Assembly: GCA_020723325.1 (NCBI GenBank)
Contig: DYJD01000004.1
Span: forward strand, 62,001 to 126,000
From: Desulfosudis oleivorans
Lineage (GTDB): Bacteria > Desulfobacterota > Desulfobacteria > Desulfobacterales > SURF-7
Reading direction: 5' to 3'
Length of the DNA: 64,000 nt
The notes below the pieces were generated by a model that saw nothing but the letters and a program-made list of their open reading frames with translations, was not told the DNA's origin and did no database searches. The position numbers and the translations under genes are program-made. Each line of letters begins with the position of its first letter. The first letter of the stretch is position 1. This document shows, piece after piece, positions 21,409-63,822 of this stretch.

Positions 21409-21426
21409 GATATAGGAGAGTAATAT

Positions 21427-22821: not shown

Positions 22822-22829
22822 GAGTAGGA

Positions 22830-32560: not shown

Positions 32561-32664
32561 AATAAGTAGCGTGTAATTGTGAAAACCGGAAACTACCACT
32601 ACTTATATTTATCAAAGAGCTCTTTTTTCGAAAACTCCAGCAATAAGTAAAGGAGCAAACAACG

Positions 32665-33882: not shown

Positions 33883-33899
33883 AGAGAGAGGGAATCATC

Positions 33900-47560: not shown

Positions 47561-48205
47561 ATGATCCTTTTTCCATTCCGCGTTCCCTCTCCCTCACTCA
47601 CCCGCTTCGGCCTAGTACGCCACGGTCAGACCCAATGGAACCAAGAGGGCCGGATTCAGGGGCAAACCGATTCCCCCCTCACAGCCGACGGCCGAATGCA
47701 GGCCCGGGCCTGGGGCCAGCAGCTTTCCGGCACGGCTTGGGACCGTATCATCGTCAGCGATCTTGGTCGCGCCCGTCATACAGCCGAACTCATCAATGAA
47801 CAGCTTGGAATAGCCATCACAGTTGATCAGCGCCTGCGGGAGCAGGATTGGGGCCGCTGGGTGGGCTTGACCCTGGCCCAGATCAAAGCCGCCGACGGTG
47901 AATTATTGGAGCAACAGATTCAGGCCGGCTGGCGTTTTTGCCCGCCCGCGGGTGAAAACCGCCTGCAGGTGCTCAAACGCAGCCGTAAGGCCCTGGCTGA
48001 GGCCGCCGCCCGTTATGCCGGGCAGAACCTCCTGGTGGTCACCCATGAAGGCGTCATCCGCGCCCTGCTGTATCAGCTCAGCCGCCGGCCGGCCCGGCCT
48101 GGTGAAGCCCCGCCCCTTTTGCAGCCGCGCCACCTCCACCTGCTGCGCCATGATGGCCGCAGGCTCGGGATTGAAACCGTCAACGCCATGAGGTTATCGG
48201 AATAA
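47561..48205 (+). CDS. histidine phosphatase / phosphoglycerate-mutase-like protein
   Basis: 214 residues. The phosphohistidine motif LVRHGQTQWN (His21), the second His in VTHEGVIRALLYQ and the acid in LREQDWGRW are all present, so it should be an active phosphatase. Family members act on sugar phosphates, cobalamin-pathway or similar substrates. Here it sits between glycosyltransferase genes, 13 nt before the next, suggesting a sugar- or lipid-phosphate substrate (inference). The N-terminal 12 residues may be an overextended start. Confidence 0.85.
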   Translation: MILFPFRVPSPSLTRFGLVRHGQTQWNQEGRIQGQTDSPLTADGRMQARAWGQQLSGTAWDRIIVSDLGRARHTAELINEQLGIAITVDQRLREQDWGRWVGLTLAQIKAADGELLEQQIQAGWRFCPPAGENRLQVLKRSRKALAEAAARYAGQNLLVVTHEGVIRALLYQLSRRPARPGEAPPLLQPRHLHLLRHDGRRLGIETVNAMRLSE

Positions 48206-48218
48206 CTCAGCCGCCGCG

Positions 48219-49388
48219 ATGAAAATCATCCAATACTGTCAGCATGTTCTTGGAATCGGGCATCTTTTCCGCAGTCTGGAAATCAGCCGGGCGCTTTCGG
48301 CCCATGCGGTGGTGTTGATCACCGGGGGTGCGGCCCTGGACCTAACCCTGCCGTCCCATGTACGTGAGTTTCGTCTGCCGCCCCTGATGATGGATGAAAC
48401 TTTCAGCGAGCTTCACAGCCATGAATCCGACCAAGTCTTGGAAACCATCAAGATCCGGCGGCGGGAACAGTTGGAGCGCATCTTCCAAAAGGAAAAACCG
48501 GATGTATTTCTGGTGGAATTGTATCCTTTCGGCCGCAAAGCCTTTCGCTTTGAGCTGGATCCCTTGCTGGCGGGCCTTCGCAGCGGCAATCCACCTTCCT
48601 GTCTGGTTTTTTGCAGCCTGCGGGACATTCTGGTCGATAAAACCGATGCTGAAAAGCATGAAGGCCGCGCGGTGCAGACCCTCAACCGCTGGTTTGACGG
48701 CCTGTTGGTGCACGCCGACCCTGCTGTCATTACCCTGGAAACGACTTTTTCCAAAACAGACGCCATCTCCATTCCCATCGTCTATACCGGTTTTGTCTGC
48801 CCTAAAACACCCGAGGCGAGCGCTTCCATGCGGCAGCGACTGGGCCTGAAACCGGAAGAAAAGCTCGTGGTGGCCAGCGCCGGCGGCGGCAAAGTCGGCG
48901 GTCCCTTGTTGACTGCCGTCATTGCCGCGGTTCAACAGATCAATTCGCAAAAGCCCTTGCGCCTGCAAGTTTTTACCGGTCCTTTTCTGGAGTCCCGTGA
49001 TTTTGACCGGCTGCGGAGCGCCCAAAACGAATATATCCAGGTGGAACGCTTTACCCCTGATTTCCCGGCTTACCTGGCCGCGGCTGACCTCTCCATCAGC
49101 ATGGCGGGTTACAATACCTGCATGAATATCCTGGCCGCAGGGGTGCCGGCATTGGTTTGGCCCTTTTCCCAGAACCGGGAGCAGGGCCTACGGGCCGCGG
49201 CCCTGGCCCGAAAGGGTTTGCTCGGAATCCTGTCCGACCGCGACCTGTCGGCCCAACCCCTGGCCGGCTGCATTCGCTCGGCATTACAGCAAAACCGTAC
49301 CGCCAAAACCGATATCCGCCTGGATGGGGCTGAGGCCACCCGGCAATGGATCGAAAATCGGTTCCGCCTGAATGCAGGTCAGCCGTGA
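48219..49388 (+). CDS. MurG-like glycosyltransferase, second
   Basis: 389 residues. N-terminal YCQHVLGIGHLFRSLEISRA, middle VVASAGGGKVGGPLLTAV and C-terminal SMAGYNTCMNILAAGVPALV match the same GT28-like group as the gene at 44694. The stop codon overlaps the GTG start of the next gene by 4 nt. Likely adds a sugar in the same glycan pathway. Confidence 0.8.
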   Translation: MKIIQYCQHVLGIGHLFRSLEISRALSAHAVVLITGGAALDLTLPSHVREFRLPPLMMDETFSELHSHESDQVLETIKIRRREQLERIFQKEKPDVFLVELYPFGRKAFRFELDPLLAGLRSGNPPSCLVFCSLRDILVDKTDAEKHEGRAVQTLNRWFDGLLVHADPAVITLETTFSKTDAISIPIVYTGFVCPKTPEASASMRQRLGLKPEEKLVVASAGGGKVGGPLLTAVIAAVQQINSQKPLRLQVFTGPFLESRDFDRLRSAQNEYIQVERFTPDFPAYLAAADLSISMAGYNTCMNILAAGVPALVWPFSQNREQGLRAAALARKGLLGILSDRDLSAQPLAGCIRSALQQNRTAKTDIRLDGAEATRQWIENRFRLNAGQP

Positions 49389-50218
49389 ACAAAATACCTT
49401 GCATTTTATGGCGCAAGCCGCCGCAAAAAAATCTCTTCCAACGCCTGGATCAGATCTTGGATCGGCAAGGGGAGGATTCCAAGCCCAAAACCGTTTTTTT
49501 TCGGGCCGATGATATTGCCGTTCCCGGCCCGGGCTTTGACCAGTTACTGGATTTGTTCATAAAACATGAAACCCCCCTGAATCTGGCCGTGGTTCCGGCC
49601 TGGCTGACCCTGCCGCGCTGGCGCAAACTAAAGGAAAAAAGCGCGCCGGGGGCCGGGCTCTGGTGCTGGCATCAACATGGCTGGCGGCATATAAATCACG
49701 AGCCTTCCGGCAAAAAACAGGAATTCGGCCCCAGCCGCACCCGGCAGCAGCTCCGGGACGATCTCCAACGCGGGCGCAACCGACTAGAAAAAATCATAGG
49801 CGCGGATTTCAGCCCGATTTTCACCCCGCCGTGGAACCGGTGCAGCCGGGAAACCCTTACGGCCCTTTCGGATTTGAACTATACCGCTGTGTCCCGCGGA
49901 TCCGCTGATGAAGCCTTGCCGGCCGGCAACCTACCGGAATTCAATGTGCATGTGGATCTGCATACCCGCAAAGAAACCAATATAGCAGAAGCCTGGGACA
50001 ATCTGTTTCACGAACTCAGCCGGGCACTGCAACAGGATCACTGCGGAATCATGCTGCACCATCAGCGCATGAACCATGCGGCTTTCCTCTTTCTGGAAAT
50101 CCTGTTACAGTTGTTGAAAACCGGCAAAGGAATCCGGGTGAAGGGCTTCAAGGATCTTCAGGAGCCCGGAACAATGACCAAGGCCATACGAATGAACAGT
50201 GCCCATGCAGACACATGA
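49385..50218 (+). CDS. polysaccharide deacetylase-like protein
   Basis: 277 residues from the GTG at 49385, which overlaps the previous stop (GTGA). FRADDIAVPGPGF supplies the Asp pair of the NodB motif; WHQHGWRHINHEP supplies His residues and FTPPWNRC the RPP-like segment. HHQRMNH may be the terminal His motif. It is probably an active carbohydrate deacetylase, but divergent. Its 3' end overlaps the small permease gene, joining the glycan set and the transport locus. Confidence 0.75.
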   Translation: MNKIPCILWRKPPQKNLFQRLDQILDRQGEDSKPKTVFFRADDIAVPGPGFDQLLDLFIKHETPLNLAVVPAWLTLPRWRKLKEKSAPGAGLWCWHQHGWRHINHEPSGKKQEFGPSRTRQQLRDDLQRGRNRLEKIIGADFSPIFTPPWNRCSRETLTALSDLNYTAVSRGSADEALPAGNLPEFNVHVDLHTRKETNIAEAWDNLFHELSRALQQDHCGIMLHHQRMNHAAFLFLEILLQLLKTGKGIRVKGFKDLQEPGTMTKAIRMNSAHADT

Positions 50219-50891
50219 ACCCCATCAAACCTCGGACAGCGCGCAGCGGCTGCTGGTGCTGCCCCTGGGCAAATCCATTCAAATCGCTTTCCAGAGCCTG
50301 CGGGTGCGTTTTCTGCGTTCGCTGATTACGGTGGCAAGCCTGGTGCTGGCCATTGCCTTTTTCTGCTTTACCCAGGTGGGCACGGATCTGGCCGACAGCA
50401 TGCTGCAAACCGGGAACGATGGTTTTCGGCAGGCCTTGGTCCGCGCCGGCTACGATCTATCGCCTGTAACAACCTCCATCGGCAGCACTCCCAAGCAAAA
50501 ATGGCTCATGTTCCTGTCCCTGCTGGTTTGTCTGGTGGGGATCGTCAATGCCCAGTTGATGTCCGTGAGCGAGCGCGTGCGGGAAATCGGCACCATGAAA
50601 TGCCTGGGCGCCCTGGACCGTTTCATTCTGCGTATCTTTCTGCTGGAAGCCGGCATGCAGGGTCTGGTGGGCTCTGCTGCCGGCGCACTAGTCGGCACCG
50701 CCGCTGCCCTTATAATCGGTATGGTCCGCTTCGGCCCCCAAGCTTTGAAACCCCTTGCCTTTAGCCAGGTGGCCTTCTCCCTGCTGCTGTCCATGGCCGT
50801 CGGCCTGGGTTTAAGCCTCACAGCCGTGATCTATCCCGCAGCCAAAGCCGCCCGCATGCAACCCGTGGAAGCCATGCGCCGAGAATTTTAA
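50205..50891 (+). CDS. small FtsX-type ABC transporter permease
   Basis: About 228 residues from the ATG at 50205; a GTG two codons earlier is possible. There is one hydrophobic segment at about 36-56 and three more after residue 95, with the FtsX hallmark SVSERVREIGTMKCLGALDR in the coupling-helix region and AAKAARMQPVEAMR at the end. The loop between TM1 and TM2 is short (about 40 residues), unlike MacB or LolC, which carry a large periplasmic domain. It probably pairs with the giant permease to form a heterodimer driven by the downstream ATPase. Confidence 0.82.
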   Translation: MQTHEPHQTSDSAQRLLVLPLGKSIQIAFQSLRVRFLRSLITVASLVLAIAFFCFTQVGTDLADSMLQTGNDGFRQALVRAGYDLSPVTTSIGSTPKQKWLMFLSLLVCLVGIVNAQLMSVSERVREIGTMKCLGALDRFILRIFLLEAGMQGLVGSAAGALVGTAAALIIGMVRFGPQALKPLAFSQVAFSLLLSMAVGLGLSLTAVIYPAAKAARMQPVEAMRREF

Positions 50892-50970: not shown

Positions 50971-51004
50971 CAATTCATAATTCGTAATTCCTAATTCCTA
51001 ATTG
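50971..51004. repeat. family D repeat, single arm D1
   Basis: CAATTCATAATTCGTAATTC continuing with CTAATTCCTAATTG, directly upstream of the ATPase gene. The paired form is at 60085-60222. Confidence 0.65.
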
Positions 51005-51010
51005 CTTCTT

Positions 51011-51751
51011 ATGTCTCACATCATCATCAGAGTTACCAACGTCCATAAAAGCTTCAAGCTGGGCCGGATCGAGTTGCCCGCCTTGCGCGGGGTTAATCTC
51101 GAAATCGAAAAGGGCCGTTACATTTCCATCATGGGACCGTCCGGCTCCGGCAAAAGCACCCTTTTCAACATGATCGGCGGGCTGGACAAACCCACCAGCG
51201 GCAAGGTTTTCATCGACGAGGTGGACATCGCCCAACTGGATGCCTATGAGCTGGCCTGGCTGCGCTGCCGCAAGATCGGCTATATTTTTCAGACCTTCAA
51301 TCTGATCCAGGTCATGACCGCCCTGGAGAATGTCACCCTGCCCATGATTTTTGCCGGAATGGATCAAGAGCGGGCTGTGGAAAAAGGGCTTGAACTGCTG
51401 AAAATGGTGGGCCTTGCCGACCGCTTCCGCCACAAGCCTTTTGAGCTTTCCGGCGGCCAGCAGCAGCGGGTGGCCGTGGCCCGGGCCCTGGCCAATGACC
51501 CGGCCATCATCCTGGCCGATGAGCCCACCGGCAACCTGGATCTCACCACCGGCGCGGAAATCATCGATCTGCTCAAACATCTCAGCGCCGAACGTAAGGT
51601 CACCGTGATCTCCGCCACCCATGATTTCAAGATGCTGAATGTTTCCGACCAGGTGGTCTGGATCCGCGACGGCCGCATTGAAAAAATCGAAAACCGCGAC
51701 GAGCTTTCCATTTCCGTGGGGCAGATCGATTCAAGAGCCCTGCAAGACTGA
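51011..51751 (+). CDS. ABC transporter ATPase (MacB/LolD type)
   Basis: 246 residues from the ATG at 51011. Walker [10 protein letters not shown] (42-50), the Q-loop in YIFQTFNLI, the signature [15 protein letters not shown], Walker B with [12 protein letters not shown] and the switch His in SATHDF are all intact. This type works with FtsX-fold permeases and drives mechanotransmission or lipoprotein/substrate extraction rather than classic translocation. It is flanked by the two permease genes, its evident partners. Confidence 0.93.
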
Positions 51752-51782: not shown

Positions 51783-51905
51783 CTCGGGGTCGGGGTCGGT
51801 ATCGGGGTCAAATTTGCAGAGCCGTCGCAGTCATTTGTTTTGAGATGCGGGATTATTCGAATTTCGATTTCGATTGCGACCCCGATCCCGATACCGACCC
51901 CGATC
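51783..51905. repeat. family A inverted repeat element A5
   Basis: Arms at 51783-51810 (TCGGGGTCGGGGTCGGTATC) and 51862-51905 (complement). Read in frame, the second arm encodes DPDPDTDPD and falsely extends the next reading frame upstream. Confidence 0.75.
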
Positions 51906-51979
51906 ATAGGACCGATGCTGCCCCAGATAACTTGGATCGCTTGAGGTCAAAAATTTTGCTCCCAAACATAGTCATAAGA

Positions 51980-54900
51980 ATGTCCGCTGCCGTCATACTA
52001 GTAACGGCAGCACTTCTGCTAGTACCTTACCTGGTGTCGGCCTCCCTTCATCCGGCTCAAGACACCGGGGAATTGCAACAGATCGTTCAAACCCTGTCAG
52101 CATCCTCGGACCGCAGCACCGGCACTCCGGGATGCAAGCTGGCCGCGGACTATATCAAAAGGGAATTTCAGTCTCTATCATTCGGCCGGGTGGGTGGTTT
52201 ATCCATCTCTGTGCCGGTGCGCCTGGCGGAAACCTGTTTTTTGACAAGCGCGGACGGGCGGCAACTGCCCATCCAGCCCCTTTTGCTGAACGCCGTTGAT
52301 CCGGAAACAATCCCTTCGGCAGATCAGACCGCCCCCCTGCTCTACGTTGGTGCGGGCACCACCACGGATTTCAACCATCAGACGGTCAAGGGCGCCGTTA
52401 TTGTAATGGACCTGGATTCCGGCAAAAACTGGCAGCAGGCCGCGGCCCTGGGAGCCAAAGCCCTGATCTTTCTGGATCACGGTATGACCCGGGCCGAAAC
52501 GGATTTCCCAACCCCCAATTTCTTCTTCAAGGAAAAGCAAGAGCTGACCCCCATTCGCTTTCCGCGCTTCTGGGTGGATCAAAATGAATTCACTGCCTGG
52601 CTTGGAAGGGAGCCCCAAACCCTAAGAAACGAGCCCGCGCAAAAGGTAAGCCTGACAGCGCCAGTGGCCTGGAAAGCAGGCCCGGCGGAGAATGTCCACC
52701 TACTGATCCCAGGGCGCGATCCACGCCTGAAAAAAGAGCTGCTGATCATCGAGGCTTTTTATGACAGTACGGCCATGGTGGCGGGACGGGCCCCGGGCGC
52801 TGATGAAGCCTTGGGCGCGGCCACGCTGATCCGGCTGGCCCGTTTCCTAAAAGAGCACCCGCCGGCCAGATCGGTCATGCTGACCGCCACCAGCGGCCAC
52901 AGCCAGACCCTTGCCGGCCTGCGCGAAATGATCTGGAGTTTGCGGGTCCGTTCCCAATATCTCAATCGCTTGAAGAAAAAACTGCAGACGGATAAAAAAG
53001 CCGTTGATGTCTATCTGGATACCATCAAGGCCTTGTCCAGACCGGAAAACGACTGGAACCTACCCCATGCAGCCATGAAGGCGGCCCTGAACAATCAGAT
53101 CAAAACCGAGATCGACGCCATTTCCCGGGCTTTGATCCGTCTGCGCCTGGAAAGCCCAGGGTCTACTCCTGCAGGACAAATCCAAAATCTGGTTCAACGC
53201 CGCCGCCTGCTACAGCGCCTTGACTGGCAGGATGATCTTTCCCGGCTCTCTGCAGAAGACCGCGAACAGTTAAAAGCACTTTTGCCTGCTGCGGAACTTT
53301 ACTACCGCCGCATGGGCGAAGATATCCGCAAGCAGCTCGACCTGCTGAAAAGCATTCTGAACTTTCGCAAGATGATGAAAGGCAAAGAACCGGCCGCCAT
53401 TGTTTCCCTGCATTTGTCCAGCCACGGCAACGGCGTGGGCGCCTTTGGCCAGGGCTGGCTGTATCCCTTGAAACCCTCCATCAACCGGGCCGGTTGCTAC
53501 AGCGCCCTGGACGCGGCCCTTAAACACTGTGCCGCGGAAACCGAACACGCCGGCAGCAGACGGCCCCTGCTGTTCGACACCTTGCGACCCAACCGGATGC
53601 GGGATTGGCGCAGTGAGCTGCCCGACCGTCCGGCCCTGGGTGGGGAAGTGAGTTCCCTGGCCGGATATCTGGGCGTGACCTTGGCCACGGTGAATGACGC
53701 CCGCTTTGCCTGGGGAACTCCCCATGACACCAGCGCCCATGTAAACTGGGAATATGCCGCACACCAGGCCGACTTTGTCTGCCATTTGATCCGCAGCCTG
53801 GCAGCCGCCCCGGTGATCCAGACCAACACCCTGCCCGCCGATGGGTTCAGCACGGTGACGGGCCGCGCCAAAATCCTGCGCCACGGCGAATTGTTCGCGG
53901 ATCAACCCGCGGCCGGCACAATGGTGATGGCCTTCCAGGGCCCCCAGCGTTATTATGCCATGACAGACACCCGGGGTGAATTTCTTCTGAAAGGACTTTG
54001 CGACAAAAAGCATGCCCTGGACAAAGTCATCATTGAAGCCTATGGCTTTGATCCTGAAAACGGGGAAATCCACTGGGCCATAGACAAACGCCGCACGGGC
54101 AAACCGGCTTATCGCCTGAAGATGCAGCGCCAATACATGCAAACCGACCTGATCCTGTTCAACTGCCGGCAGTCCAGCCTCTTTGACCTGCTGGAACCCC
54201 GCAATTTCAATTATCTGACCAAACTTGAACTGCTGGACGGCAGTCGTGATGCTCCATTCTTGACTTACAGCCACAGCCGCATCGACACCCGCGCCTCCTC
54301 CCTGGCCGCGGTGTTTCTCGAACCCCGCGCCCGTATGAAAATCATGCTTTCCGACAGCCTGCTGGCCAAAAAACTGATTCTGACCAACGGCACAGCGGAC
54401 CTGCCGGAAGGTTCCGGCTATCTTCTGGAAGATCATCCGGCCCTAACCGCCACTCCCTTTAAGGCCGCCGGGGATATGTGGACCTTCATCACCCCCCGTA
54501 TCCGCAATCTGGAAAAACACGGCATTTATGATGAAAGCATCCGCGCCCTGCAGCAGGAAGGACTGGAAGCACTGGCACAGGCAAGCGCTTACCTTGAAGC
54601 CGGTCTCTATGACCGTTTCAACGGTACAGCCGCCAAGGCCTTTGCCCTGGCCAGCCGGGTATATGATCAGGTGGATCGGACCCAAAAAGATGTGCTGCTG
54701 GGTGTGCTTTTTTATATTGCCCTGTTCGTTCCCTTTGCGGTTTGCCTGGAAAGGCTGCTCTTTGCCTGGGCCGATATCCATAAGCGCATCCTTTCCTTTT
54801 GCCTGATTCTGGCGCTTCTGATCACGGTGATCTACCATGTCCATCCGGCCTTTCAACTGGCCTACAGTCCGCTGGTAGTGGTCTTGGCCTTTTTCATCAT

Positions 54901-56806
54901 GGGCCTTTCCCTGCTGGTGGCCTTGATCATCATCCTGCGTTTTGAAGCGGAAATGAAGCGCCTGCAAACCCATGCCGGCGCCATGAACATTTCCGAGATC
55001 AGCCGCGGCAAGGCCTTTCTGGCTGCCTTTTTCCTCGGTCTCGGCAACCTGCGGCGGCGCCCCCTGCGCACGGCCCTGACCTGCATCACTTTGATCCTCC
55101 TCACCTTCACCATCATGAGTTTTACAACAGTGAAAACCGCCCGCCACCATGTGCGCATCCGTCTGCAAAACCAGGCCGCCTACCAAGGCCTGCTGTTTAA
55201 AAAGGTCAACTGGCAAAGCCTGCCGCCGGAAGCCGCAGCGGTCCTGATGGATACATTCGGTAAAGAAGGTCGCATCGCTCCCCGGGCCTGGATCACCGCC
55301 GATGATCCCACCCGCGCCGGACGGTTGCCGGTGCAATACCAGGAGCACTCCTTTGAAGCCGCGGGGATCATCGGCCTCGGACCTGCGGAGCAGCAGGTCT
55401 CCGGCCTTGGGCGAATGCTGGTGGGCGGGAGATGGTTTCAGGAAGATGAGCGCCGGGCCGTAATCCTTCCGGATCGCATGGCCGCAAATCTCGGCATTGA
55501 TCCAAAGGCGCCTGCCAATGCTGTGGTAAAAATCTGGGGACAGCCCTTTGAAGTGGTGGGGGTTTTTTCCGGAGAAGCCCTTGCGGAATTCCGGGATCTG
55601 GACGGCGAGCCCCCCACGCCCGTGATTTTTCCCGAGGAAGTGGTGGCTGAAATGAGCGAGGTGGAAATGGAAGCTTTGGAATCCGGCGAGGATGTGCAAG
55701 ATTTTCAAAGCCGCTATGACCATCTGGCCGCCGAACTCACTATCATCCTGCCCCTGAATACGGTCCTGGCCGCAGGCGGGGCGCTCAAAAGCATTGCCGT
55801 GGGAATGACACCCGCAACGGATATCAGCGCCGCCGCCCGCCAAATGACCGATCGCTTCGGCTTGTCCCTTTTCAGCGGCGAGGGCCGGGATTGCTTTTTG
55901 AATCAAAGCAGCGACTCCCTTAGCTACAGTGGCATGCCCAACATCATCATCCCCCTGATCATCTCCATCCTGATCGTGCTGAATACCATGATCAGCAGCG
56001 TATACGAACGCAAGCGGGAAATCGGGATTTACACCTCCATCGGCCTGGCCCCCACCCACGTGGCCTTTCTGTTCATGGCCGAAACCCTGGCCTTTGCCGT
56101 CATCAGCGTCATCATCGGTTATGTGCTGGCCCAGATCAGCGCCACCATTTTTGCCGGCACAGCCCTCTGGGCCGGCATCACCGTCAACTACTCCTCCCTG
56201 GCCGGTGTTGCCGCCATGCTGCTGGTTGTTGCAGTGGTGCTGGTTTCCGCCATTTATCCGGCCAGGGTTGCCGCCGCCATCGCCATCCCGGATGTGAACC
56301 GCTCCTGGACCATGCCGGCCTCGGTGGAAAACGTGATCGAACTGTCCCTGCCTTTCATGCTCCAGCACCGGGAACTGGCAGGGGTCTGCGGCTATTTGCA
56401 GGCCTATTTCAAAGCCCATCAGGATGTGTCCCACGGGTTGTTTTCCACAGGGGCGACATCCACACACTTTACTTGCCCATCCCCCTGTATAGATTTGTCC
56501 TCGCCGCCGGTGTGCCGGCAGCCGCAAGATGCCGGCCCGGCCTGCATCCAACTGCAACAAAAAGTCTGGTTGGCGCCCTTTGATTTCGGCATCATGCAAC
56601 AGGTGGACCTGACCTTCCGCCCGGCCTGCACCGGCGAGAATCTTTTGGAAATCCACGTCCGCCTGGAACGCAGATCCGGCGAAACCAATGTCTGGTGGCG
56701 CCTCAACAAGGCCTTTCTCAACCGCTTGCGCAAGCAACTCCTGATCTGGCGCTCCCTGGATAGTACCACGCGGGAGGAATACGGGAAGGCATTGAAAGAA
56801 AGGTGA
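51980..56806 (+). CDS. giant FtsX-type permease with degenerate M28 peptidase-like ectodomain
   Basis: About 1,608 residues from the ATG at 51980; the open frame upstream is repeat A5. Order: TM1 (5-20); M28-like N-terminal segment (30-75, GTPGCKLAADYIKREF); PA-like insert (about 118-170); M28-like core (about 240-320); a charged helical region; a distal M28-like segment with WGTPHDTSAHVNWEYA; a carboxypeptidase-regulatory-like beta domain (about 650-760); a TM cluster (about 905-985); FtsX core TM (about 1020); a periplasmic domain; three TMs (about 1320-1440); and a cytoplasmic tail of 165 residues. In the M28 core AHYDS is AFYDS, GADDN is GADEA and the EE motif reads TSGH, so zinc hydrolysis is unlikely. 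VYERKREIGIYTSIGL is the FtsX coupling motif. Probably a substrate-binding mechanotransducer. Confidence 0.8.
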   Translation: MSAAVILVTAALLLVPYLVSASLHPAQDTGELQQIVQTLSASSDRSTGTPGCKLAADYIKREFQSLSFGRVGGLSISVPVRLAETCFLTSADGRQLPIQPLLLNAVDPETIPSADQTAPLLYVGAGTTTDFNHQTVKGAVIVMDLDSGKNWQQAAALGAKALIFLDHGMTRAETDFPTPNFFFKEKQELTPIRFPRFWVDQNEFTAWLGREPQTLRNEPAQKVSLTAPVAWKAGPAENVHLLIPGRDPRLKKELLIIEAFYDSTAMVAGRAPGADEALGAATLIRLARFLKEHPPARSVMLTATSGHSQTLAGLREMIWSLRVRSQYLNRLKKKLQTDKKAVDVYLDTIKALSRPENDWNLPHAAMKAALNNQIKTEIDAISRALIRLRLESPGSTPAGQIQNLVQRRRLLQRLDWQDDLSRLSAEDREQLKALLPAAELYYRRMGEDIRKQLDLLKSILNFRKMMKGKEPAAIVSLHLSSHGNGVGAFGQGWLYPLKPSINRAGCYSALDAALKHCAAETEHAGSRRPLLFDTLRPNRMRDWRSELPDRPALGGEVSSLAGYLGVTLATVNDARFAWGTPHDTSAHVNWEYAAHQADFVCHLIRSLAAAPVIQTNTLPADGFSTVTGRAKILRHGELFADQPAAGTMVMAFQGPQRYYAMTDTRGEFLLKGLCDKKHALDKVIIEAYGFDPENGEIHWAIDKRRTGKPAYRLKMQRQYMQTDLILFNCRQSSLFDLLEPRNFNYLTKLELLDGSRDAPFLTYSHSRIDTRASSLAAVFLEPRARMKIMLSDSLLAKKLILTNGTADLPEGSGYLLEDHPALTATPFKAAGDMWTFITPRIRNLEKHGIYDESIRALQQEGLEALAQASAYLEAGLYDRFNGTAAKAFALASRVYDQVDRTQKDVLLGVLFYIALFVPFAVCLERLLFAWADIHKRILSFCLILALLITVIYHVHPAFQLAYSPLVVVLAFFIMGLSLLVALIIILRFEAEMKRLQTHAGAMNISEISRGKAFLAAFFLGLGNLRRRPLRTALTCITLILLTFTIMSFTTVKTARHHVRIRLQNQAAYQGLLFKKVNWQSLPPEAAAVLMDTFGKEGRIAPRAWITADDPTRAGRLPVQYQEHSFEAAGIIGLGPAEQQVSGLGRMLVGGRWFQEDERRAVILPDRMAANLGIDPKAPANAVVKIWGQPFEVVGVFSGEALAEFRDLDGEPPTPVIFPEEVVAEMSEVEMEALESGEDVQDFQSRYDHLAAELTIILPLNTVLAAGGALKSIAVGMTPATDISAAARQMTDRFGLSLFSGEGRDCFLNQSSDSLSYSGMPNIIIPLIISILIVLNTMISSVYERKREIGIYTSIGLAPTHVAFLFMAETLAFAVISVIIGYVLAQISATIFAGTALWAGITVNYSSLAGVAAMLLVVAVVLVSAIYPARVAAAIAIPDVNRSWTMPASVENVIELSLPFMLQHRELAGVCGYLQAYFKAHQDVSHGLFSTGATSTHFTCPSPCIDLSSPPVCRQPQDAGPACIQLQQKVWLAPFDFGIMQQVDLTFRPACTGENLLEIHVRLERRSGETNVWWRLNKAFLNRLRKQLLIWRSLDSTTREEYGKALKER

Positions 56807-56823
56807 ATCGGATTTTATTCACT

Positions 56824-57144
56824 CTATAACAGTCGATCCGCATTGACTTGAAGCAACTCGGCAATTTTTTTTGCCATGGATATCGAAAGTCGCCGCCGCC
56901 CACGCTCATAATCGCTTATCATATTTTGACGAATACCCAATTTTTTTGCAAGCATCGCTTGTGTCAGACCGGCTTTCAAGCGTGAACCGGCAAGAAGATT
57001 ACCGATCCTGTTCGATTGCATTTCCTTCCAGAAGTCGGTTTCTTCGATCGGAACACTATCGGATTCATAAAGTCTTTTCACATTTTCCGGCAATTTCAGC
57101 AGGTCTCTTGCGACCTTATGTTTAATACTGATATTATATGCCAT
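56824..57144 (-). CDS. Xre-type HTH protein, antitoxin-like
   Basis: 106 residues. The C-terminal half is a Cro/C1 helix-turn-helix (AGLTQAMLAKKLGIRQNMISDYE as a continuous HTH from about residue 58). The N-terminus (MAYNISIKHKVARDLLKLPE) resembles a short beta-alpha leader as seen in RelE/HigB-type proteins, but there is no toxin-length gene beside it. It may be an orphan antitoxin or a plain regulator. It converges on the giant permease gene. Confidence 0.72.
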   Translation of the reverse strand: MAYNISIKHKVARDLLKLPENVKRLYESDSVPIEETDFWKEMQSNRIGNLLAGSRLKAGLTQAMLAKKLGIRQNMISDYERGRRRLSISMAKKIAELLQVNADRLL

Positions 57145-57206
57145 AAGTTATATTATGACCATATCGGGTTATATTCAAGTATTTTTATGAGTCGGTTTGA
57201 CTGAAA

Positions 57207-57350
57207 ATGAGGGACATTGCCGACAAATTATACAAAGTAAGCTTTAGTGAAGCGGGTTATGGAAATTTTTTTCACCTCCTTTTTCCTGTAAAAGGGTATA
57301 TCAATAATTGCAGACTCCCTAAATGGCATCGGGATTCTGGCGAGGAATAA
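57207..57350 (+). CDS. possible 47-residue protein
   Basis: An open frame from the ATG at 57207 (MRDIADKLYKVSFSEAGYGN) to TAA at 57348-57350. It ends 3 nt before the next gene, and the GAGGAAT near its end is the ribosome site of that gene. It has no family and no strong ribosome site of its own; it may be a leader or remnant. Confidence 0.25.
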   Translation: MRDIADKLYKVSFSEAGYGNFFHLLFPVKGYINNCRLPKWHRDSGEE

Positions 57351-57353
57351 AAA

Positions 57354-57830
57354 ATGTTTTATGAAAGTTTTCACAACCGCTTTCCGGAAATTGCGGAATG
57401 TGAAACCCGGGCGATTACATTACTTACCGACAATAATCTGAATTTGCCGCCGGACAGTTATGCTTTTGTGGAGATGTTTTGCAATGAGCCGGGGTGCGAC
57501 TGCCGCCGGGTCTTTTTTTCGGTAATATCATCACGCAGCCAACAAATTGAAGCGGTGATCGCCTGGGGCTGGGAGCAACGCGCATTTTATGCAAAATGGT
57601 TGGGAAGCAAAGATCCGGACATGCTCAGCGACCTGATGGGACCGGTCCTCAATCTTACCAGCCCGCAATCAAAATTTGCCCCGGCGCTGCTGGATCTTTG
57701 CAAAACATTGTTGCTCCAGGACCCCGATTATATCGAAAGGGTCAAACGCCATTATACCATGTTTCGTAGCGCCATCGATCGCAAAACAAAAACCGGAGTT
57801 CGGAAAAAAAAGAAAAAAAGCAGAAAATAA
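57354..57830 (+). CDS. conserved-type hypothetical protein with CxxxxC-C motif
   Basis: 158 residues from the ATG at 57354, with GAGGAAT upstream. FVEMFCNEPGCDCRRVFFSV (about 43-62) has a Cys-rich motif that could bind a metal. The remainder is helical, and the C-terminus is very Lys/Arg-rich (RKKKKKSRK). No function is recognised. It is not obviously linked to the transporter genes on either side. Confidence 0.7.
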   Translation: MFYESFHNRFPEIAECETRAITLLTDNNLNLPPDSYAFVEMFCNEPGCDCRRVFFSVISSRSQQIEAVIAWGWEQRAFYAKWLGSKDPDMLSDLMGPVLNLTSPQSKFAPALLDLCKTLLLQDPDYIERVKRHYTMFRSAIDRKTKTGVRKKKKKSRK

Positions 57831-57861
57831 TCAATCCAGACAGAAGAATCCACCGGACTTT

Positions 57862-57885
57862 ATCGCGGCTGGAAGCCGCTCCCAC
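57862..57885. repeat. family E repeat E4
   Basis: CGCGGCTGGAAGCCGCTCCC followed by AC, same orientation as E1 at 15499. Confidence 0.7.
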
Positions 57886-57950
57886 ATCGGATGACCGAAG
57901 CGATGCACAAGATTGAAAGAACGAAGTGATACGATCCTTCGATGTTGGAA

Positions 57951-58018
57951 ATTCCTTGTTGGATATTCTACGGTTCGTTTTGGCTTTAAAAAGCGAATAT
58001 CGAATATCCAACAAGGAA
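57951..58018. repeat. family G inverted repeat
   Basis: TTCCTTGTTGGATATTC (57952-57968) and its exact complement GAATATCCAACAAGGAA (58002-58018) flank 33 nt, making a stable hairpin just upstream of the next gene. Confidence 0.75.
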
Positions 58019-58073
58019 CCACAGAATATTGAAAGCGGGATTAAACACTGATAAGTAAAGATTGAACTCCCCA

Positions 58074-60080
58074 ATGGTCGCGACCGATCTCAAACCCTTC
58101 CCTCCCGCAGACACCCCTGTCCGCCTGCGCGCATTCGTGCTGGGAATTGCCCTTGCCGCCCTGATCTGCCTGCTGACACCGTACAACAACATCTACCGCC
58201 AGGGAACCCCCTTGGGTGGCGGCCATTTCCCTTTGGCCCCTTTTATTCTGCTATTCTGGCTTACCCTCACGGCTGCTGTTTTCAAAAGAATTTTTAACGG
58301 TCATGCAGGACTGAACGGCAAGGAAGTTCTGATCATCTGGATATTGATGGTGCTGGCTTCCGGGATTGCCTACACCGGCTTGGTCCGCACCTTTTTTATC
58401 AATCTTACCGCCCCTTTTTATTATGCCACAGTGGAAAATCGCTGGGCGGAAGTGCTGCATCCCTTGCTGCCCGAGAGCTGGTACCCGGACCAATCCGCCG
58501 CCAAGTTGTTTTATGAGGGCCTGGCCGGCGGCCGCGATATGGGCTGGACTGCCGTCTGCCGCAACATCCCCTGGCGGGCCTGGCTCACACCGCTTTTGGT
58601 ATGGGGCGTTTTTGTGCTGACCTGCTATGGAGTCATGATCTGCATGATCAACTTGATCAGCCGGCAATGGTTGCACAATGAGCGCATGAACCTGCCGCTT
58701 TTGCGGGTGCCCCAGATGCTGGAACAGGCCCTGGATCAGGACGGCCTTTGGAAATTTCTGGGAAACCGCTTCTTGTTAACCGGATTTTTCCTTGCCGCGG
58801 CTTTGCATCTCTTGAACGGCCTGCATGCCTACTTTCCCACGGTGCCGCAACTGCCCACTATTATCCTAGCCGGCCCCTATTTCCCGGCAACCGGTCTTTT
58901 CAGCGGATTTCAGAAATTGAATATTTACCTCTATCCGGCCTTTATCGGTTTTGCCTTTCTGGCCTCCCGGCAGATCTCCTTCTCTTTTTGGTTTCTGTTT
59001 CTCATGGGCGGTTTGCTGTCCGGTCTCTTGGTCCTTTTGGGCTGGAACATCCCCGCTTCAGCCCTGGGAGTGACCTTTGGACCAGCCTTGTCCAAGCCGG
59101 AAGAGACCCAGATGATCGGGGCCTACCCGGTTTTCTTTGTGTTCATCCTCTGGCTGGGCCGCCGGCATTTCCTGGATATCCTGCGCGAGGCTTTCCGTCT
59201 CAGTCCGGAGCCCCCTGCCCGCACGGAATGGCTGTCCACCCGCCATTCCTTTTGGGGCATGCTGCTCGGCCTGGCCGCCATTGTTTGGTGGTGCCGCCAT
59301 TTCGGCCAAAACCCATGGACGGCGGTTCTGCTCATGGGTGTTTTTTTCATGGTCATGCTGGTGGCCACCCGCATCATCTGCCAGGGCGGCGTGGCCTACT
59401 ACACCCTGACCGCCTCACCCCTGGACGGCATTCTGACATTTTTCAGCCCGCGCCTTTTTACGCCGGCGGGCCTGCTCATTGCCGCCGTGACCCAAAAAGT
59501 GCTTTTCGTGGATTTGCGGGAATCCCTGATGCCCTCCCTGCTGCACGCCGCTGAGATCAGCCACCGGGAAAAAAAACGCAAGTGGGTCCTTTTCACCATC
59601 GCCGGCACCCTTATTGTCGCAGTCGCCCTGTCGTTTGTGTCCATGCTGACCCTTTGCTACAAATTCGGAGCCCGTGAAATGGATCTGGAATGGGCCGGCC
59701 GCACCACCATGACCATGTATGAAAACGTGAAAACCCTCACGGAAGCATCCCCGCATCAAAGCGATTGGATGATTATCTTTTCCACTCTCGGTGCTCTAGT
59801 CATGCTGGTTCTGGTGATCGGCTACCATCGGGCCTACTGGTGGCCCCTTCACCCCCTTGGATACCTGACCGCTTACAGCTCGGCCATGCGCATCCTCTGG
59901 TTCAGCTTTCTGGTGGGCTGGCTGTGCAATTCCCTTTGCCTGCGCTACGGCGGCGTCCGCCTGTTCCAGCGGGTCAGCCATCTCTTTGTCGGCCTCATTA
60001 TCGGGGACTTTTTCATGGCCGGGGTCTTTGCCTTGGCAGGGCTGTTCAGCAATGTGAACTACCAAGTCCTACCGGTTTGA
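58074..60080 (+). CDS. large multi-pass membrane protein (DUF6785-like)
   Basis: About 668 residues from the ATG at 58074; a TTG four codons earlier is possible. Many membrane segments. The N-terminal region (LRAFVLGIALAALICLL, GKEVLIIWILMVLASGIAYT, ATVENRWAEVLHPLLPESW) follows the pattern I recall for DUF6785/DUF6784 proteins, which resemble oligopeptide-transporter-like (OPT) carriers. Function is unproven in the family. Paired with the next gene, it could form a two-component carrier. Confidence 0.65.
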   Translation: MVATDLKPFPPADTPVRLRAFVLGIALAALICLLTPYNNIYRQGTPLGGGHFPLAPFILLFWLTLTAAVFKRIFNGHAGLNGKEVLIIWILMVLASGIAYTGLVRTFFINLTAPFYYATVENRWAEVLHPLLPESWYPDQSAAKLFYEGLAGGRDMGWTAVCRNIPWRAWLTPLLVWGVFVLTCYGVMICMINLISRQWLHNERMNLPLLRVPQMLEQALDQDGLWKFLGNRFLLTGFFLAAALHLLNGLHAYFPTVPQLPTIILAGPYFPATGLFSGFQKLNIYLYPAFIGFAFLASRQISFSFWFLFLMGGLLSGLLVLLGWNIPASALGVTFGPALSKPEETQMIGAYPVFFVFILWLGRRHFLDILREAFRLSPEPPARTEWLSTRHSFWGMLLGLAAIVWWCRHFGQNPWTAVLLMGVFFMVMLVATRIICQGGVAYYTLTASPLDGILTFFSPRLFTPAGLLIAAVTQKVLFVDLRESLMPSLLHAAEISHREKKRKWVLFTIAGTLIVAVALSFVSMLTLCYKFGAREMDLEWAGRTTMTMYENVKTLTEASPHQSDWMIIFSTLGALVMLVLVIGYHRAYWWPLHPLGYLTAYSSAMRILWFSFLVGWLCNSLCLRYGGVRLFQRVSHLFVGLIIGDFFMAGVFALAGLFSNVNYQVLPV

Positions 60081-60232: not shown

Positions 60233-62188
60233 ATGGATAAAGAGCTTCAAGAATATAGAGATCTACTCCATCCCCCCGACCACTTCGCGGAGGGCTTTGA
60301 CTGGAAAACGGTCTTAGGCGCGGTGTTCATCGGCTTTTTGATGATGCCCGGCAGCATGTATCTGCAACTGGTGATCGGCACCGGTATCGGTCCGGCCGCG
60401 CGCTGGGTCACCATTATTCTGTTTGCCGAGGTGGCCAAGCGCGCTTACACGGAAATCAAGCGCCAGGAAATTTTCCTCTTGTATTACATGGCCGGGGCCG
60501 CCATGGCTTCACCGTTCCAGGGCCTGCTCTGGAACCAGTATCTGGTGCAATCCGACGCGGCCCGCATGCTCGGCCTTACGGAATACATCCCGGCCTGGGT
60601 GGCGCCGCCGCCCGAAACCGCTTCCCTGCTTGCCAGAACTTTTTTTCACCGGGATTGGCTCATACCCATTCTGCTGTTGATCGGTTCCCAATTGATCCAG
60701 CGGGTGGACCATTTCGGGCTCGGTTACGCCTTGTACCGTTTGACCTCGGATGTTGAAAAGCTGCCCTTTCCCATGGCGCCGGTGGGGGCCTTGGGCACCA
60801 TGGCCCTGGCCGAATCCACCGAGGAAAAGCAAGTGAGCTGGAAATGGCGGGTCTTTTCCATCGGCGGGATGATCGGCTTGATATTCGGCGGGTTTTACAT
60901 ACTACTGCCCACGGTTTCAGGCCTGGTGCTGACCGAACCCATCCGCCTGTTCCCCATTCCCTGGGTGGAGCTCACCGGCCATACCGAAGGAATTCTTCCG
61001 GCCGTGGCCTTCGGCATTCAACTGGACCTGGGGTTGCTTTTCATCGGCATGGTGCTGCCCTTCTGGGCCGTGATGGGCGGCCTGATCGGCCTCATCATCA
61101 CCATGGGACTCAATCCCCTGCTCCACCACCATGGTATTTTACGGCGCTGGCATGAAGGCATGGGCACTGTGGATACTATCTTTGCCAACAATTTTGATTT
61201 TTACATGAGCTTCGGCATCGGTCTGGGTCTGGCCATTGCCGCCATCGGCCTCTTTCATGTGGCCCGCTCCTTCCGGCAGGATTACGGCAACGGAAAAATC
61301 TCCCTGAAAGATCTTTTTCAACCGCGGCCCGGCCGGGGGGATTTCAACATTTGGATTTCCGTCGGCATCTATCTGTTTTCCACCTGCGCCTATGTGGGAC
61401 TCTGCTGTTTGCTGGTGCCCAATTTCCCCTGGCTTTTTTTCATGGCCTACGGTTTTATCTACACGCCGGTGCTTTCCTATATAACCGCCCGCATGGAAGG
61501 AATTGCCGGGCAATTTGTCAGCCTGCCCATGGTGCGGGAAATCAGTTTCATTGCCGGCGCCAAGTATTTCGGATACCAGGGCATTGAAATCTGGTATGCC
61601 CCCATTCCCATCCACAATTACGGAGAAGCCACGGTGCATTTCCGCCAGATCGAACTGACCGGCACCAGTATCCGCGGCATCATCAAGGCTGAACTGGTGG
61701 TTTTTCCGGTGGTCATCATCGCCGGTCTGCTCTTTTCCCAATTCATCTTCCGCCTGGCGCCGATCCCCTCGGCACTCTACCCCTATGCCCAGGAGATGTG
61801 GCATCTCCAGGCCCTCAATACTTTGCTCATGCAAACATCCACTTTGGAAGGCAGCTCGCTTTTTATGCAGGCCCTGACCGGTGTCCATGTCCTGGCCGGC
61901 TTGATTTTCGGCTTGCTGGCCTACCTGCTGCTGAGTCTGATGGGCCTGCCCATTCTATTAATTTACGGCGTGGTCCGCGGCCTGGGCCAGACTACCCCCC
62001 ACGGCCTGCTTTTGGAAGTCCTAGGCGCCCTCCTGGGGCGCTTCTTTTTCATGAAACGCTATGGGGCCATGTGGCGGCAATACGCGCCGGTGCTGCTGGC
62101 CGGATTCTCCTGCGGCATGGGACTCACCGGCATGTTCGCCATGGGATTCGCCTTGATCTTAAAATCCTTGACGCGCCTGACCTATTAA
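60233..62188 (+). CDS. large multi-pass membrane protein (OPT-like)
   Basis: 651 residues with about 12-14 hydrophobic segments. The N-terminus DWKTVLGAVFIGFLMMPGSM and the loop IRLFPIPWVELTGHTEGIL resemble oligopeptide-transporter-superfamily proteins, and its gene order with the DUF6785-like protein supports a shared complex. The conserved-looking YITARMEGIAGQFVSLPMVR could be a pore element. The substrate is unknown. It follows repeat D2 and is 21 nt before the next gene, so those two are in one operon. Confidence 0.65.
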   Translation: MDKELQEYRDLLHPPDHFAEGFDWKTVLGAVFIGFLMMPGSMYLQLVIGTGIGPAARWVTIILFAEVAKRAYTEIKRQEIFLLYYMAGAAMASPFQGLLWNQYLVQSDAARMLGLTEYIPAWVAPPPETASLLARTFFHRDWLIPILLLIGSQLIQRVDHFGLGYALYRLTSDVEKLPFPMAPVGALGTMALAESTEEKQVSWKWRVFSIGGMIGLIFGGFYILLPTVSGLVLTEPIRLFPIPWVELTGHTEGILPAVAFGIQLDLGLLFIGMVLPFWAVMGGLIGLIITMGLNPLLHHHGILRRWHEGMGTVDTIFANNFDFYMSFGIGLGLAIAAIGLFHVARSFRQDYGNGKISLKDLFQPRPGRGDFNIWISVGIYLFSTCAYVGLCCLLVPNFPWLFFMAYGFIYTPVLSYITARMEGIAGQFVSLPMVREISFIAGAKYFGYQGIEIWYAPIPIHNYGEATVHFRQIELTGTSIRGIIKAELVVFPVVIIAGLLFSQFIFRLAPIPSALYPYAQEMWHLQALNTLLMQTSTLEGSSLFMQALTGVHVLAGLIFGLLAYLLLSLMGLPILLIYGVVRGLGQTTPHGLLLEVLGALLGRFFFMKRYGAMWRQYAPVLLAGFSCGMGLTGMFAMGFALILKSLTRLTY

Positions 62189-62209: not shown

Positions 62210-62833
62210 ATGAAAATAAAAACATTTGCGGTCCTGCCTTTCCTTATCCTGATTTCCGCCGGCATGAGCCGGGGACAAGACAGCCCCAGCCGATTGGGCG
62301 GATTTATTCTGGGAACCGATATCAGCCAATATCAAAATCGGATCCAGGCAACCACGGTTCTGCCCATTCGCCACCAGGAATATCTTCAGGAAGTGGAAAT
62401 CAAACCGGATCGATATTTTAAAAGCGGGTTGATCACTTACGGCAACTGCGACAAACCCGGTAAAATTATCCGGATTCGATTGAAATATGAAGATTCCGGC
62501 CGGGAGATGTATGAACAATTACTGAGCCGCTTTAAAACCCGCTTCGGTGAACCAGTGGAATGGCGGGGCGACCCTTTTCAGGCTGTGCTGGCCTGGAAAT
62601 GGTCTTTTAAAGACAAAGAAAGCAACAATGTCACGCTGATTCTGCAACACAACAGCAAGGACCGCGAACAAAAACTAGGTAATTCGGTGAAGCTGACCCT
62701 CAACAGCCAAATCGAAAAGGAACGGGCCTGTTATGAAAGCCGCCATCCTCAACCCCCGGTTCCCAAAAACGAAAAAAAAGAAGCTCCTGTCCGGCCTGAT
62801 GCGGTGGACTGGCAGACCCTTGTCCCATATTGA
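62210..62833 (+). CDS. exported hypothetical protein
   Basis: 207 residues with a signal peptide (residues 1 to about 22, ending SRGQDS). The body alternates strands and helices (LGGFILGTDISQYQNRIQ; YEQLLSRFKTRFGEPVEW), a pattern similar to periplasmic proteins that track residues for a transporter. It closely follows the OPT-like gene. No family is recognised. Confidence 0.65.
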   Translation: MKIKTFAVLPFLILISAGMSRGQDSPSRLGGFILGTDISQYQNRIQATTVLPIRHQEYLQEVEIKPDRYFKSGLITYGNCDKPGKIIRIRLKYEDSGREMYEQLLSRFKTRFGEPVEWRGDPFQAVLAWKWSFKDKESNNVTLILQHNSKDREQKLGNSVKLTLNSQIEKERACYESRHPQPPVPKNEKKEAPVRPDAVDWQTLVPY

Positions 62834-62913
62834 TCGAGCAGGACTCTGAGGACCTCGCGTCATCCCATGAATGAACCGCTTCAAACCGTATGGATTGAAA
62901 GACAATATAAATC

Positions 62914-63822
62914 ATGAACTATTCCATACCCAATGATTGGAAAGAAATCGCCTGGAACAACATCCGTTTTCATGCACCGGCCGATTGGGAGATTGCCAGC
63001 ATCGGCCAGCGCCATTTGGTACTGGCAGACGGGGAAGGCCCGGTACTGGAAATAAAATGGGGGCCGGTCAAGGACTCTTTTTCACACCAGCACCAATTGG
63101 AACGTCTTGCAGTGGAAAATCGCCGCAACAAAAACATCAGCTTCAACGCTTGCCCGGTGCCGGCAGCCTGGGAAAGCGCCCTGGACCGTTATAAACTGGC
63201 CGGGTTTTCCTGGCGGGACAACTCAATCACAGGCATCGGCGTGATTTTATTTTGTCCCCATTGCCGTCAGGCGGTCCTGATTCAATTTGTCACCAGGCAG
63301 AAAAACGTCACCCTGGGAACCACCAATTCCGTTTCCCAAAGGGTGATGGCTTCTTTCCGCGAACACACTGAAGGTCCTAAGCGCCTCTGGGCCGTGTACG
63401 ACATGCGGGCCGTCCTGCCCGCCGCCTCTCAGCTCCTGCGCTATCGTTTTGAAGCCGGCGTTTTTGAATTGCATTTCCGGTTCGAGGAAAAAATGCTTTC
63501 ATTATACCGCTGGGGCTTGCCGGCGGAGCGCCTGCATGAACTGGGGCCGGCCGGTTTTGCCGAAAAAGCCTTTGGTTTTACCAAACCCTCTCCCCGGCTC
63601 CTGCCTGGTGCCGGAAATGGCATCCTGAACTGGGAATATTCCGCCCCGTCCTGGTGGTCGCGCGTGCAATGCCGCTTGCAAGCCCAAGCTCCTTTTCAAT
63701 ATTATCGTCTCTGCCATTTGCAGGATCAGAACCGCCTTTTGGGTGTGCGTCTGACCGGGAAAAAGCCCCTTGCTTGGAATGAGTTTGAGAGCCTCGCGCA
63801 GTCTTATGAGGTTATTTCATAA
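62914..63822 (+). CDS. hypothetical protein of the transporter operon
   Basis: 302 residues, no signal peptide or membrane span, rich in Trp. Two similar-looking halves: APADWEIASIGQRHLVLADG near the N-terminus and FEAGVFELHFRFEEKMLSLY later. CPHCRQAVLIQF is a CxxC pair that could bind a metal or form a disulfide. It overlaps the PqqD-like gene by 17 nt, so the two are coupled. No family is recognised. Confidence 0.65.
   Translation: MNYSIPNDWKEIAWNNIRFHAPADWEIASIGQRHLVLADGEGPVLEIKWGPVKDSFSHQHQLERLAVENRRNKNISFNACPVPAAWESALDRYKLAGFSWRDNSITGIGVILFCPHCRQAVLIQFVTRQKNVTLGTTNSVSQRVMASFREHTEGPKRLWAVYDMRAVLPAASQLLRYRFEAGVFELHFRFEEKMLSLYRWGLPAERLHELGPAGFAEKAFGFTKPSPRLLPGAGNGILNWEYSAPSWWSRVQCRLQAQAPFQYYRLCHLQDQNRLLGVRLTGKKPLAWNEFESLAQSYEVIS

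Follow-up and report, generated by a model that had tools for sequence, protein, structure and literature searches.

A giant FtsX-type permease with a predicted M28 pseudo-peptidase ectodomain is encoded in a co-inherited gene set of Desulfobacterota

The window, a stretch of 64,000 nucleotides of Desulfosudis oleivorans DNA, encodes a giant protein in which an ectodomain with a predicted M28 peptidase fold is joined to a permease that, by its sequence, is of type VII (MacB-like). All but possibly one of the zinc ligands of the M28 family are lost throughout the homologues aligned, the former catalytic loops are unusually conserved, and the gene stands in a recurrent operon whose members are inherited together. 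The explanation towards which we lean, with somewhat more confidence than doubt, is that the giant, a small FtsX protein and a LolD-like ATPase form a type VII ABC complex in which the pocket of the pseudo-peptidase binds a glycan, a glycoconjugate or a glycan-handling partner.

The open reading frame of the giant spans positions 51845-56806 of the forward strand (1653 aa). It contains in-frame ATG codons at 51845 and at 51980 (Met46), and the second is the likelier start because the homologues begin near it; residues are numbered here with the Met at 51980 as W1. Pfam analysis detected Peptidase_M28 (E 2.3e-7, over positions 1-72 of a profile of 193), MacB_PCD (E 4e-7), FtsX (E 3.4e-11) and a weak PA match below the cut-off (E 0.012-0.023). 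The original prediction had described an ectodomain of about 850 residues with an M28 N-segment, a PA-like insert and a core; these parts were recovered, and the extracytoplasmic part ahead of the first extra transmembrane (TM) helix is now put at about 885 residues. Beyond M28 and PA, the AlphaFold model shows a helical insert of ~155 residues and further beta and helical segments.

Table 1. Features of the giant protein and of its neighbouring genes in the window
Feature	Position	Strand	Basis
Histidine phosphatase family protein	47561..48205	+	Pfam
GT28-type glycosyltransferase	48219..49388	+	Pfam; upstream in 29/45 loci
Polysaccharide deacetylase-like protein	49346..50218	+	Pfam; upstream in 27/49 loci
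Small FtsX permease, 230 aa, 4 TM, without large periplasmic domain; presumed partner	50199..50891	+	Pfam, hydropathy
LolD/MacB-type ABC ATPase, Walker A, LSGGQ	51002..51751	+	Profile search
N-terminal hydrophobic segment, signal peptide or first TM helix (W1-19)	51980..52036	+	Hydropathy; homologue starts
M28 N-segment with DRSTGTPG (W20-69)	52037..52186	+	Profile alignment, model; edges approximate
PA-like insert (W70-219)	52187..52636	+	Weak Pfam PA; profile alignment to 2ek8 and 6hc6; VIA 6hc6; edges approximate
M28 core, first half (W220-311)	52637..52912	+	Edges approximate, from secondary structure
H85→F260	52757-52759	+	Profile/hhalign alignment
Bridging Asp as D275/E276 (candidate)	52802-52807	+	Profile/hhalign alignment
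E131/E132→H307/S308	52898-52903	+	Profile/hhalign alignment
Helical insert of ~155 residues inside M28 core (W312-466)	52913..53377	+	AlphaFold secondary structure
M28 core, second half (W467-611)	53378..53812	+	Model and alignment
D160→H478	53411-53413	+	hhalign alignment
H247→G579	53714-53716	+	hhalign alignment
Beta-rich segments (W619-790)	53834..54349	+	Secondary structure of AlphaFold model
Helical segment ahead of membrane (W825-904)	54452..54691	+	AlphaFold secondary structure
Three extra TM helices, many invariant residues (W905-985)	54692..54934	+	Hydropathy, alignment
FtsX/MacB-type permease: TM1, MacB_PCD, TM2-4 (W1033-1425)	55076..56254	+	Pfam, profile search, hydropathy
Conserved C-terminal tail (W1426-1608); VWLAPFDFGIMQ, SGEANAW..RINK in consensus	56255..56803	+	Alignment
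DUF6785/DUF6784 polytopic membrane protein	58062..60080	+	Pfam; 59/65 loci
651-aa polytopic membrane protein	60233..62188	+	54/57 loci

Hydropathy analysis of the giant revealed one N-terminal segment, three TM helices in W905-985 and the four helices of the FtsX set in W1033-1425, located at W1033, 1322, 1361 and 1407. MacB_PCD forms the periplasmic core between TM1 and TM2, and the family profile matched MacB (5lil) in the PDB with E 1e-7. A self-consistent topology would place the ectodomain outside. Judging from family membership, the complex would work by mechanotransmission and not by transport across the inner membrane, the small FtsX protein and the giant probably pairing as a heterodimeric permease. 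The M28 part lies outside the FtsX stalk and is joined through the other ectodomain segments and the three extra TM helices. Because it is not in the stalk, direct pulling by the ATPase is harder to picture than with a periplasmic domain of the MacB type; the idea that the fold is pulled by the ATPase appears to be the weakest step of the earlier proposal, and a partner or docking module fused in cis fits the topology better.

An AlphaFold model of W20-905, built from 70 sequences, reached a pLDDT of 91.2 and a pTM of 0.91. Comparison of this model with M28 structures bore out the proposal that the region is M28-like: the top VIA matches were 3b35 and 1amp (Z 25.4 and Z 25.3; 2.7 Å, 258 residues), 6hc6 was matched including its PA domain (Z 25.0, 377 residues, 5.4 Å), and Foldseek retrieved 2ek8 with E 2.7e-20. 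A profile of 21 family members searched against the PDB also returned the aminopeptidases 2ek8 (E 1.2e-11) and 6hc6 (E 1.5e-8), in alignments that span the N-segment, the PA region and the first half of the M28 core. The beta and helical segments behind the core were barely covered by the fold search. The ectodomain of the giant is thus predicted to adopt the M28 fold.

The two-zinc site of M28 peptidases is built from the ligand set His-Asp-Glu-Asp-His. We mapped these positions and that of the catalytic Glu (in SGAP numbering H85, D97, E132, D160 and H247, and E131) with hhalign against seven intact M28 domains of the same phylum, leaving out insert columns. H85 fell on F260, D97 on E276, E131 on H307, E132 on S308, D160 on H478 and H247 on G579; HMMER placed D97 on D275, one residue off, so that either D275 or E276 may be what is left of the bridging Asp. 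In the window the five ligand positions read F260, D275/E276, S308, H478 and G579, and the two-zinc set is gone. In an alignment of 92 rows (the window plus the 91 homologues that were left when near-duplicates had been removed from 107 candidates; one row lacks the first half), the original residue was found in 0/92 rows at 260, 308, 478 and 579, and Glu at 307/308 in 0/92. Among the 91 rows with a letter, position 260 was F in 85, P in 4 and A in 2; position 275 was Asp in 89; position 276 was Q, A or S in 21; and position 307, which corresponds to the catalytic Glu that serves M28 peptidases as general base, was H in 71, R in 6, N in 5, Y in 4, K in 3 and Q in 2. Position 478 was H in 82, Y in 9 and F in 1 of the 92 rows, and position 579 was G in 89, S in 2 and N in 1.

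The changes of AHYDS to AFYDS and of GADDN to GADEA are present as originally quoted, and the altered positions proved to be shared across the family. The EE motif had been read as TSGH; this string does occur, within ATSGH, but the EE pair corresponds to H307-S308, so the pair overlaps no more than the end of TSGH. Two further ligand changes had escaped that reading, namely D160 to H478 (in SLHLSSHG) and H247 to G579 (in WGTPxD). In distant clades (28 loci, some of them already counted) the rows with letters lacked His at 260 and 579 as well as Glu at 307/308; one of these loci, L143, lacks the first half, and another, L139, has Asp at 478 and still lacks the two His and the Glu ligands. Since four of the ligands are lost in all 92 rows, the pseudo-peptidase state is family-wide and not a local mutation. 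To judge from the alignment, the domain would stand outside the active M28 peptidases, and the model and the 92-row alignment together uphold the central proposal of an M28 fold that is devoid of its zinc ligand set and joined to a mechanotransmission-type permease.

Homologues with intact ligands were also looked for, and no M28-FtsX fusion of this kind was seen in 395 and 96 overlapping genomes of one phylum or among the best 80 of the 211 places found by a pattern-based scan. Searched with the ectodomain profile at E 1e-3, 77 of the 395 genomes gave a match, 28 of them being the family. Eight places with weak matches were read by eye, and no FtsX part was seen in any of these: the apparent architecture is M1-M28-PDZ in L146-L149, in L153 and in an ORF of 1127 aa in L151, M1-M28 in L150 and PA-M28-PDZ in L152. 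The literature matches listed contained no paper on an M28-FtsX fusion; one listed paper (PMC4000134), to go by its title, links a metallopeptidase-like domain to modified polysaccharide biosynthesis.

The former catalytic loops are under stronger constraint than the M28 core at large. Nine-residue stretches at the five former catalytic positions, scored in 70 sequences, had a mean conservation of 0.79 compared with 0.626 (SD 0.065) for random stretches of the M28 core, with the insert and PA excluded from the draws, and only 27 of 20000 draws were as conserved. The two most conserved nine-residue stretches of W20-628 are former catalytic loops. Among the 34 positions looked at, S480, G483, G485, D549, E556, D573, R575, W578, P581 and D583 were invariant (92/92). 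As the old catalytic loops are unusually conserved, the pocket seems to have been kept, and these loops probably form an open pocket. With a mean conservation of 0.68 the segment behind the M28 core exceeds both halves of that core (0.64 and 0.60), so constraint extends beyond the old active site; the helical insert (W312-466) was the least conserved of the six ectodomain segments compared. In the distant clades (L130-L143) the pocket motif GGEV is replaced by CCDV, ACDI, ASDV or an SSD-type motif, and several invariant residues are altered. With these replacements and the Asp at 478 of L139 the pocket is not uniform, and the changed motifs suggest a different ligand or partner in those clades.

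The genes around the giant follow a recurrent order, which in the loci reaching far enough is small FtsX, ATPase, giant, DUF6785 and 651-aa protein. The small FtsX gene lay 5' of the giant in 55 of the 58 loci with at least 2500 bases upstream, and the ATPase gene in 68/69. This ATPase matched the LolD profile with E 8.2e-67, below the curated cut-off of the profile for true LolD. Despite enough flank, L041 lacks the ATPase, small FtsX and DUF6785; L096 and L114 lack small FtsX, DUF6785 and the 651-aa protein; L036 lacks DUF6785 and the 651-aa protein; and L069 lacks DUF6785. L103 was counted as absent for DUF6785 and has an overlapping DUF6785 match. In the window some 1.25 kb (56807-58061) separate the giant and the DUF6785 gene, which are nearly contiguous in many relatives; this interval contains an HTH_3 (Xre-type) gene on the reverse strand (56824-57144) and a 158-aa ORF (57354-57830) for which no Pfam match and no match in 80 loci were found. 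Downstream, at 62210-63822, there are two ORFs of 207 aa (with a hydrophobic start) and 302 aa, which have no clear Pfam family and have relatives in some loci. Elsewhere the window holds two tripartite efflux sets, each complete with OEP, HlyD_D23 and ACR_tran, at 20077-25952 and 31187-37004.

Of the two polytopic proteins, the 651-aa protein is the more conserved: its 50 full-length homologues are 75-83% identical to the copy of the window, the corresponding figures being 73-86% for the ATPase and 47-65% for DUF6785. A Pfam search with a limit of E 10 gave no match, the best PDB match of its profile (E 0.2) was not credible, and its AlphaFold model had a pLDDT of 42. No relation between it and the DUF6785 protein was detected by hhalign. 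DUF6785 was found in 0/14 control genomes, and the literature search returned no paper on it. A distant sequence relation of the two proteins to OPT oligopeptide transporters may exist; PF03169 (OPT) was matched in 0/5 carrier genomes searched and in 2/14 control genomes.

A scan of genome contigs yielded 211 relatives of the giant, and the best 80 of these are titled as Desulfobacterota groups or more broadly ('Deltaproteobacteria', 'Proteobacteria'), with Desulfatibacillum alkenivorans, Desulfopila aestuarii and Solidesulfovibrio among them. In 96 genomes near the window, its own included, 84 gave a match at E 1e-3 and 28 one below 1e-100, the weaker matches falling over the FtsX part in the listed rows. 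We then compared the occurrence of the genes in a single sample of 395 genomes drawn from the phylum, taking E below 1e-100 as presence of the giant. The giant, the 651-aa protein (one match per genome), the DUF6785 protein and a close GT28 orthologue were found in the identical 28 of the 395 genomes, and a further set of 59 relatives, which overlaps the first in part, had both the giant and the 651-aa protein in the same 16. The system is patchy, occurring in 20 of 246 genera; because the genomes are related, these counts are not independent trials. The E limits that define a family member and a close orthologue were chosen after wide gaps had been seen: the best match of the weakest carrier of the giant was 2.9e-133 and that of the first other genome 5.1e-11, and for GT28 the weakest carrier stood at 8.0e-60, a paralogue followed at 5.5e-34 and the first non-carrier at 9.4e-32 (with a limit of E 1e-3, 212/395 genomes match GT28). 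Co-inheritance of the GT28 orthologue holds even in genomes such as G363, G475 and G198, in which this gene and the giant share a contig but are far apart.

Further genes were compared between the 28 carriers and 30 non-carriers, the latter chosen by hand, partly for their GT28 paralogues, and so not random. A close deacetylase orthologue was present in 25/28 carriers and 0/30 chosen non-carriers, one of which had a weaker match (E 3.4e-16). A close histidine phosphatase orthologue was present in 13/28 and 0/30, while at E 1e-3 this family matched 42 of the 58 genomes, and whether it belongs to the system is uncertain. GSCFA, found in 5/28 carriers and 5/30 chosen non-carriers, was rejected as a member and now serves as a negative control. 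Because the glycosyltransferase (28/28) and the deacetylase (25/28) are co-inherited with the giant, the context points to a glycan or glycoconjugate rather than a peptide.

According to excerpts of PMC12646458 and PMC5985334, type VII ABC transporters work outside the membrane and partner proteins set the job of each system. In the model that we prefer, the giant would be the large permease subunit, and the small FtsX protein and the LolD-like ATPase would complete a type VII ABC complex of the MacB/LolCDE/FtsEX kind. The pseudo-M28 part would be the partner fused in cis, a built-in module for binding or docking, whose reused pocket of conserved loops with invariant charged residues may bind a glycan, a glycoconjugate or a glycan-handling protein. 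The cargo would be made with the co-inherited glycosyltransferase and deacetylase. The FtsX pair and the ATPase would supply ATP-driven motion that acts on this cargo in the periplasm, the two polytopic proteins acting on it together with the permease pair. In this scheme we infer the bound molecule, the mechanics and the direction of the coupling.

The same evidence can be read as that of a purely structural platform on which the ectodomain contacts proteins (DUF6785, the 651-aa protein or an outer-membrane partner) and has no small-molecule or glycan ligand, which we consider unlikely. The transferrin receptor, an M28-like ectodomain that binds proteins, was among both the VIA and the Foldseek neighbours, some of these entries having bound proteins by title; the two polytopic proteins are strictly co-inherited with the giant; and other type VII systems use protein partners, EnvC, LolA and TesA being named in excerpts of PMC12646458. 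However, the most conserved stretches of W20-628 are the former catalytic loops, which argues for use of the pocket, although a protein partner could bind there as well. A new mononuclear metal site formed by H478, H307, D275/E276 and perhaps D262, which would replace the two-zinc site and make the domain an altered hydrolase or a metal-dependent binder, is improbable. Three of its positions map onto former active-site positions, and since E276, H307 and H478 occur together in 59 of the 92 rows, a different site for one metal can be imagined in these rows; the relatives also include 2anp, an aminopeptidase whose Glu151 is mutated to His and whose title calls it 'functional'. Yet these residues are not strictly co-conserved, 276 being Q, A or S as counted above, 307 being other than His in 20/91 rows and 478 being Tyr or Phe in 10/92, and 2anp, by its title, changes the general base alone. 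In addition, P or A occupies position 260 in 5 of the 9 rows with Y478 compared with 1 of the 81 rows with H478 and a letter there, a pattern that resembles the packing of side chains within the former metal site and is weak because the rows are related. That the M28 domain is a decaying relic, functionless and merely carried by the permease, is very improbable, for although all metal ligands but possibly one are lost, 91 non-redundant homologues from several orders of sulfate reducers carry the domain, and its former catalytic loops surpass the remaining core in conservation, so that the conservation test disfavours a relic.

The binding-module model for the giant can be set against systems that share its parts. 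M28 aminopeptidases with a PA domain (2ek8; YwaD/BSAP, 6hc6) or without one (1amp) have the same fold, N-segment, PA position and core topology, but in the giant four of the five metal ligands and the catalytic Glu are replaced, the core carries a helical insert of ~155 residues and the whole is fused to an ABC permease. The transferrin receptor likewise puts an M28-like fold with a PA-like domain to another use. It is not known to have peptidase function and differs from the giant in being eukaryotic and single-pass, with other extra domains and no known ABC transporter. MacB, LolCDE and FtsEX have in common with the system of the giant an FtsX/MacB permease domain and a LolD-like ATPase; unlike them, the giant carries an ectodomain of ~885 residues and three additional TM helices, and its presumed partner has no large periplasmic domain. 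YbbAP-TesA, as described in excerpts of PMC12646458, is likewise a type VII ABC system with a hydrolase-fold protein outside the membrane, and its YbbP has 10 TM helices. TesA is, by the same excerpts, a separate and active esterase, whereas the peptidase fold of the giant is fused in cis and has lost its ligand set.

All-or-none co-inheritance of four genes in 395 genomes, two of them without known function, outlines what looks like a complete multi-protein system, and the protein together with its operon points to an unstudied envelope machine. We suggest tentatively, as a possibility about which we have more doubt than confidence, that the window contains the central part of a so far undescribed machine for envelope glycans in Desulfobacterota, neither a Wzx/Wzy nor a synthase nor a classical ABC route. 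Its type VII ABC permease would be a heterodimer with a built-in pseudo-peptidase receptor, the two polytopic proteins, one of them highly conserved, would serve as flippase, polymerase or channel, and the glycosyltransferase and deacetylase inherited with them would belong to it as well. The system around the giant may be more novel than the domain itself. Its presence in cultured sulfate reducers makes it genetically testable where tools exist. If the model is true, a hydrolase fold that has become a binding module on a mechanotransmission permease would be a test case of how type VII ABC systems gain new jobs.
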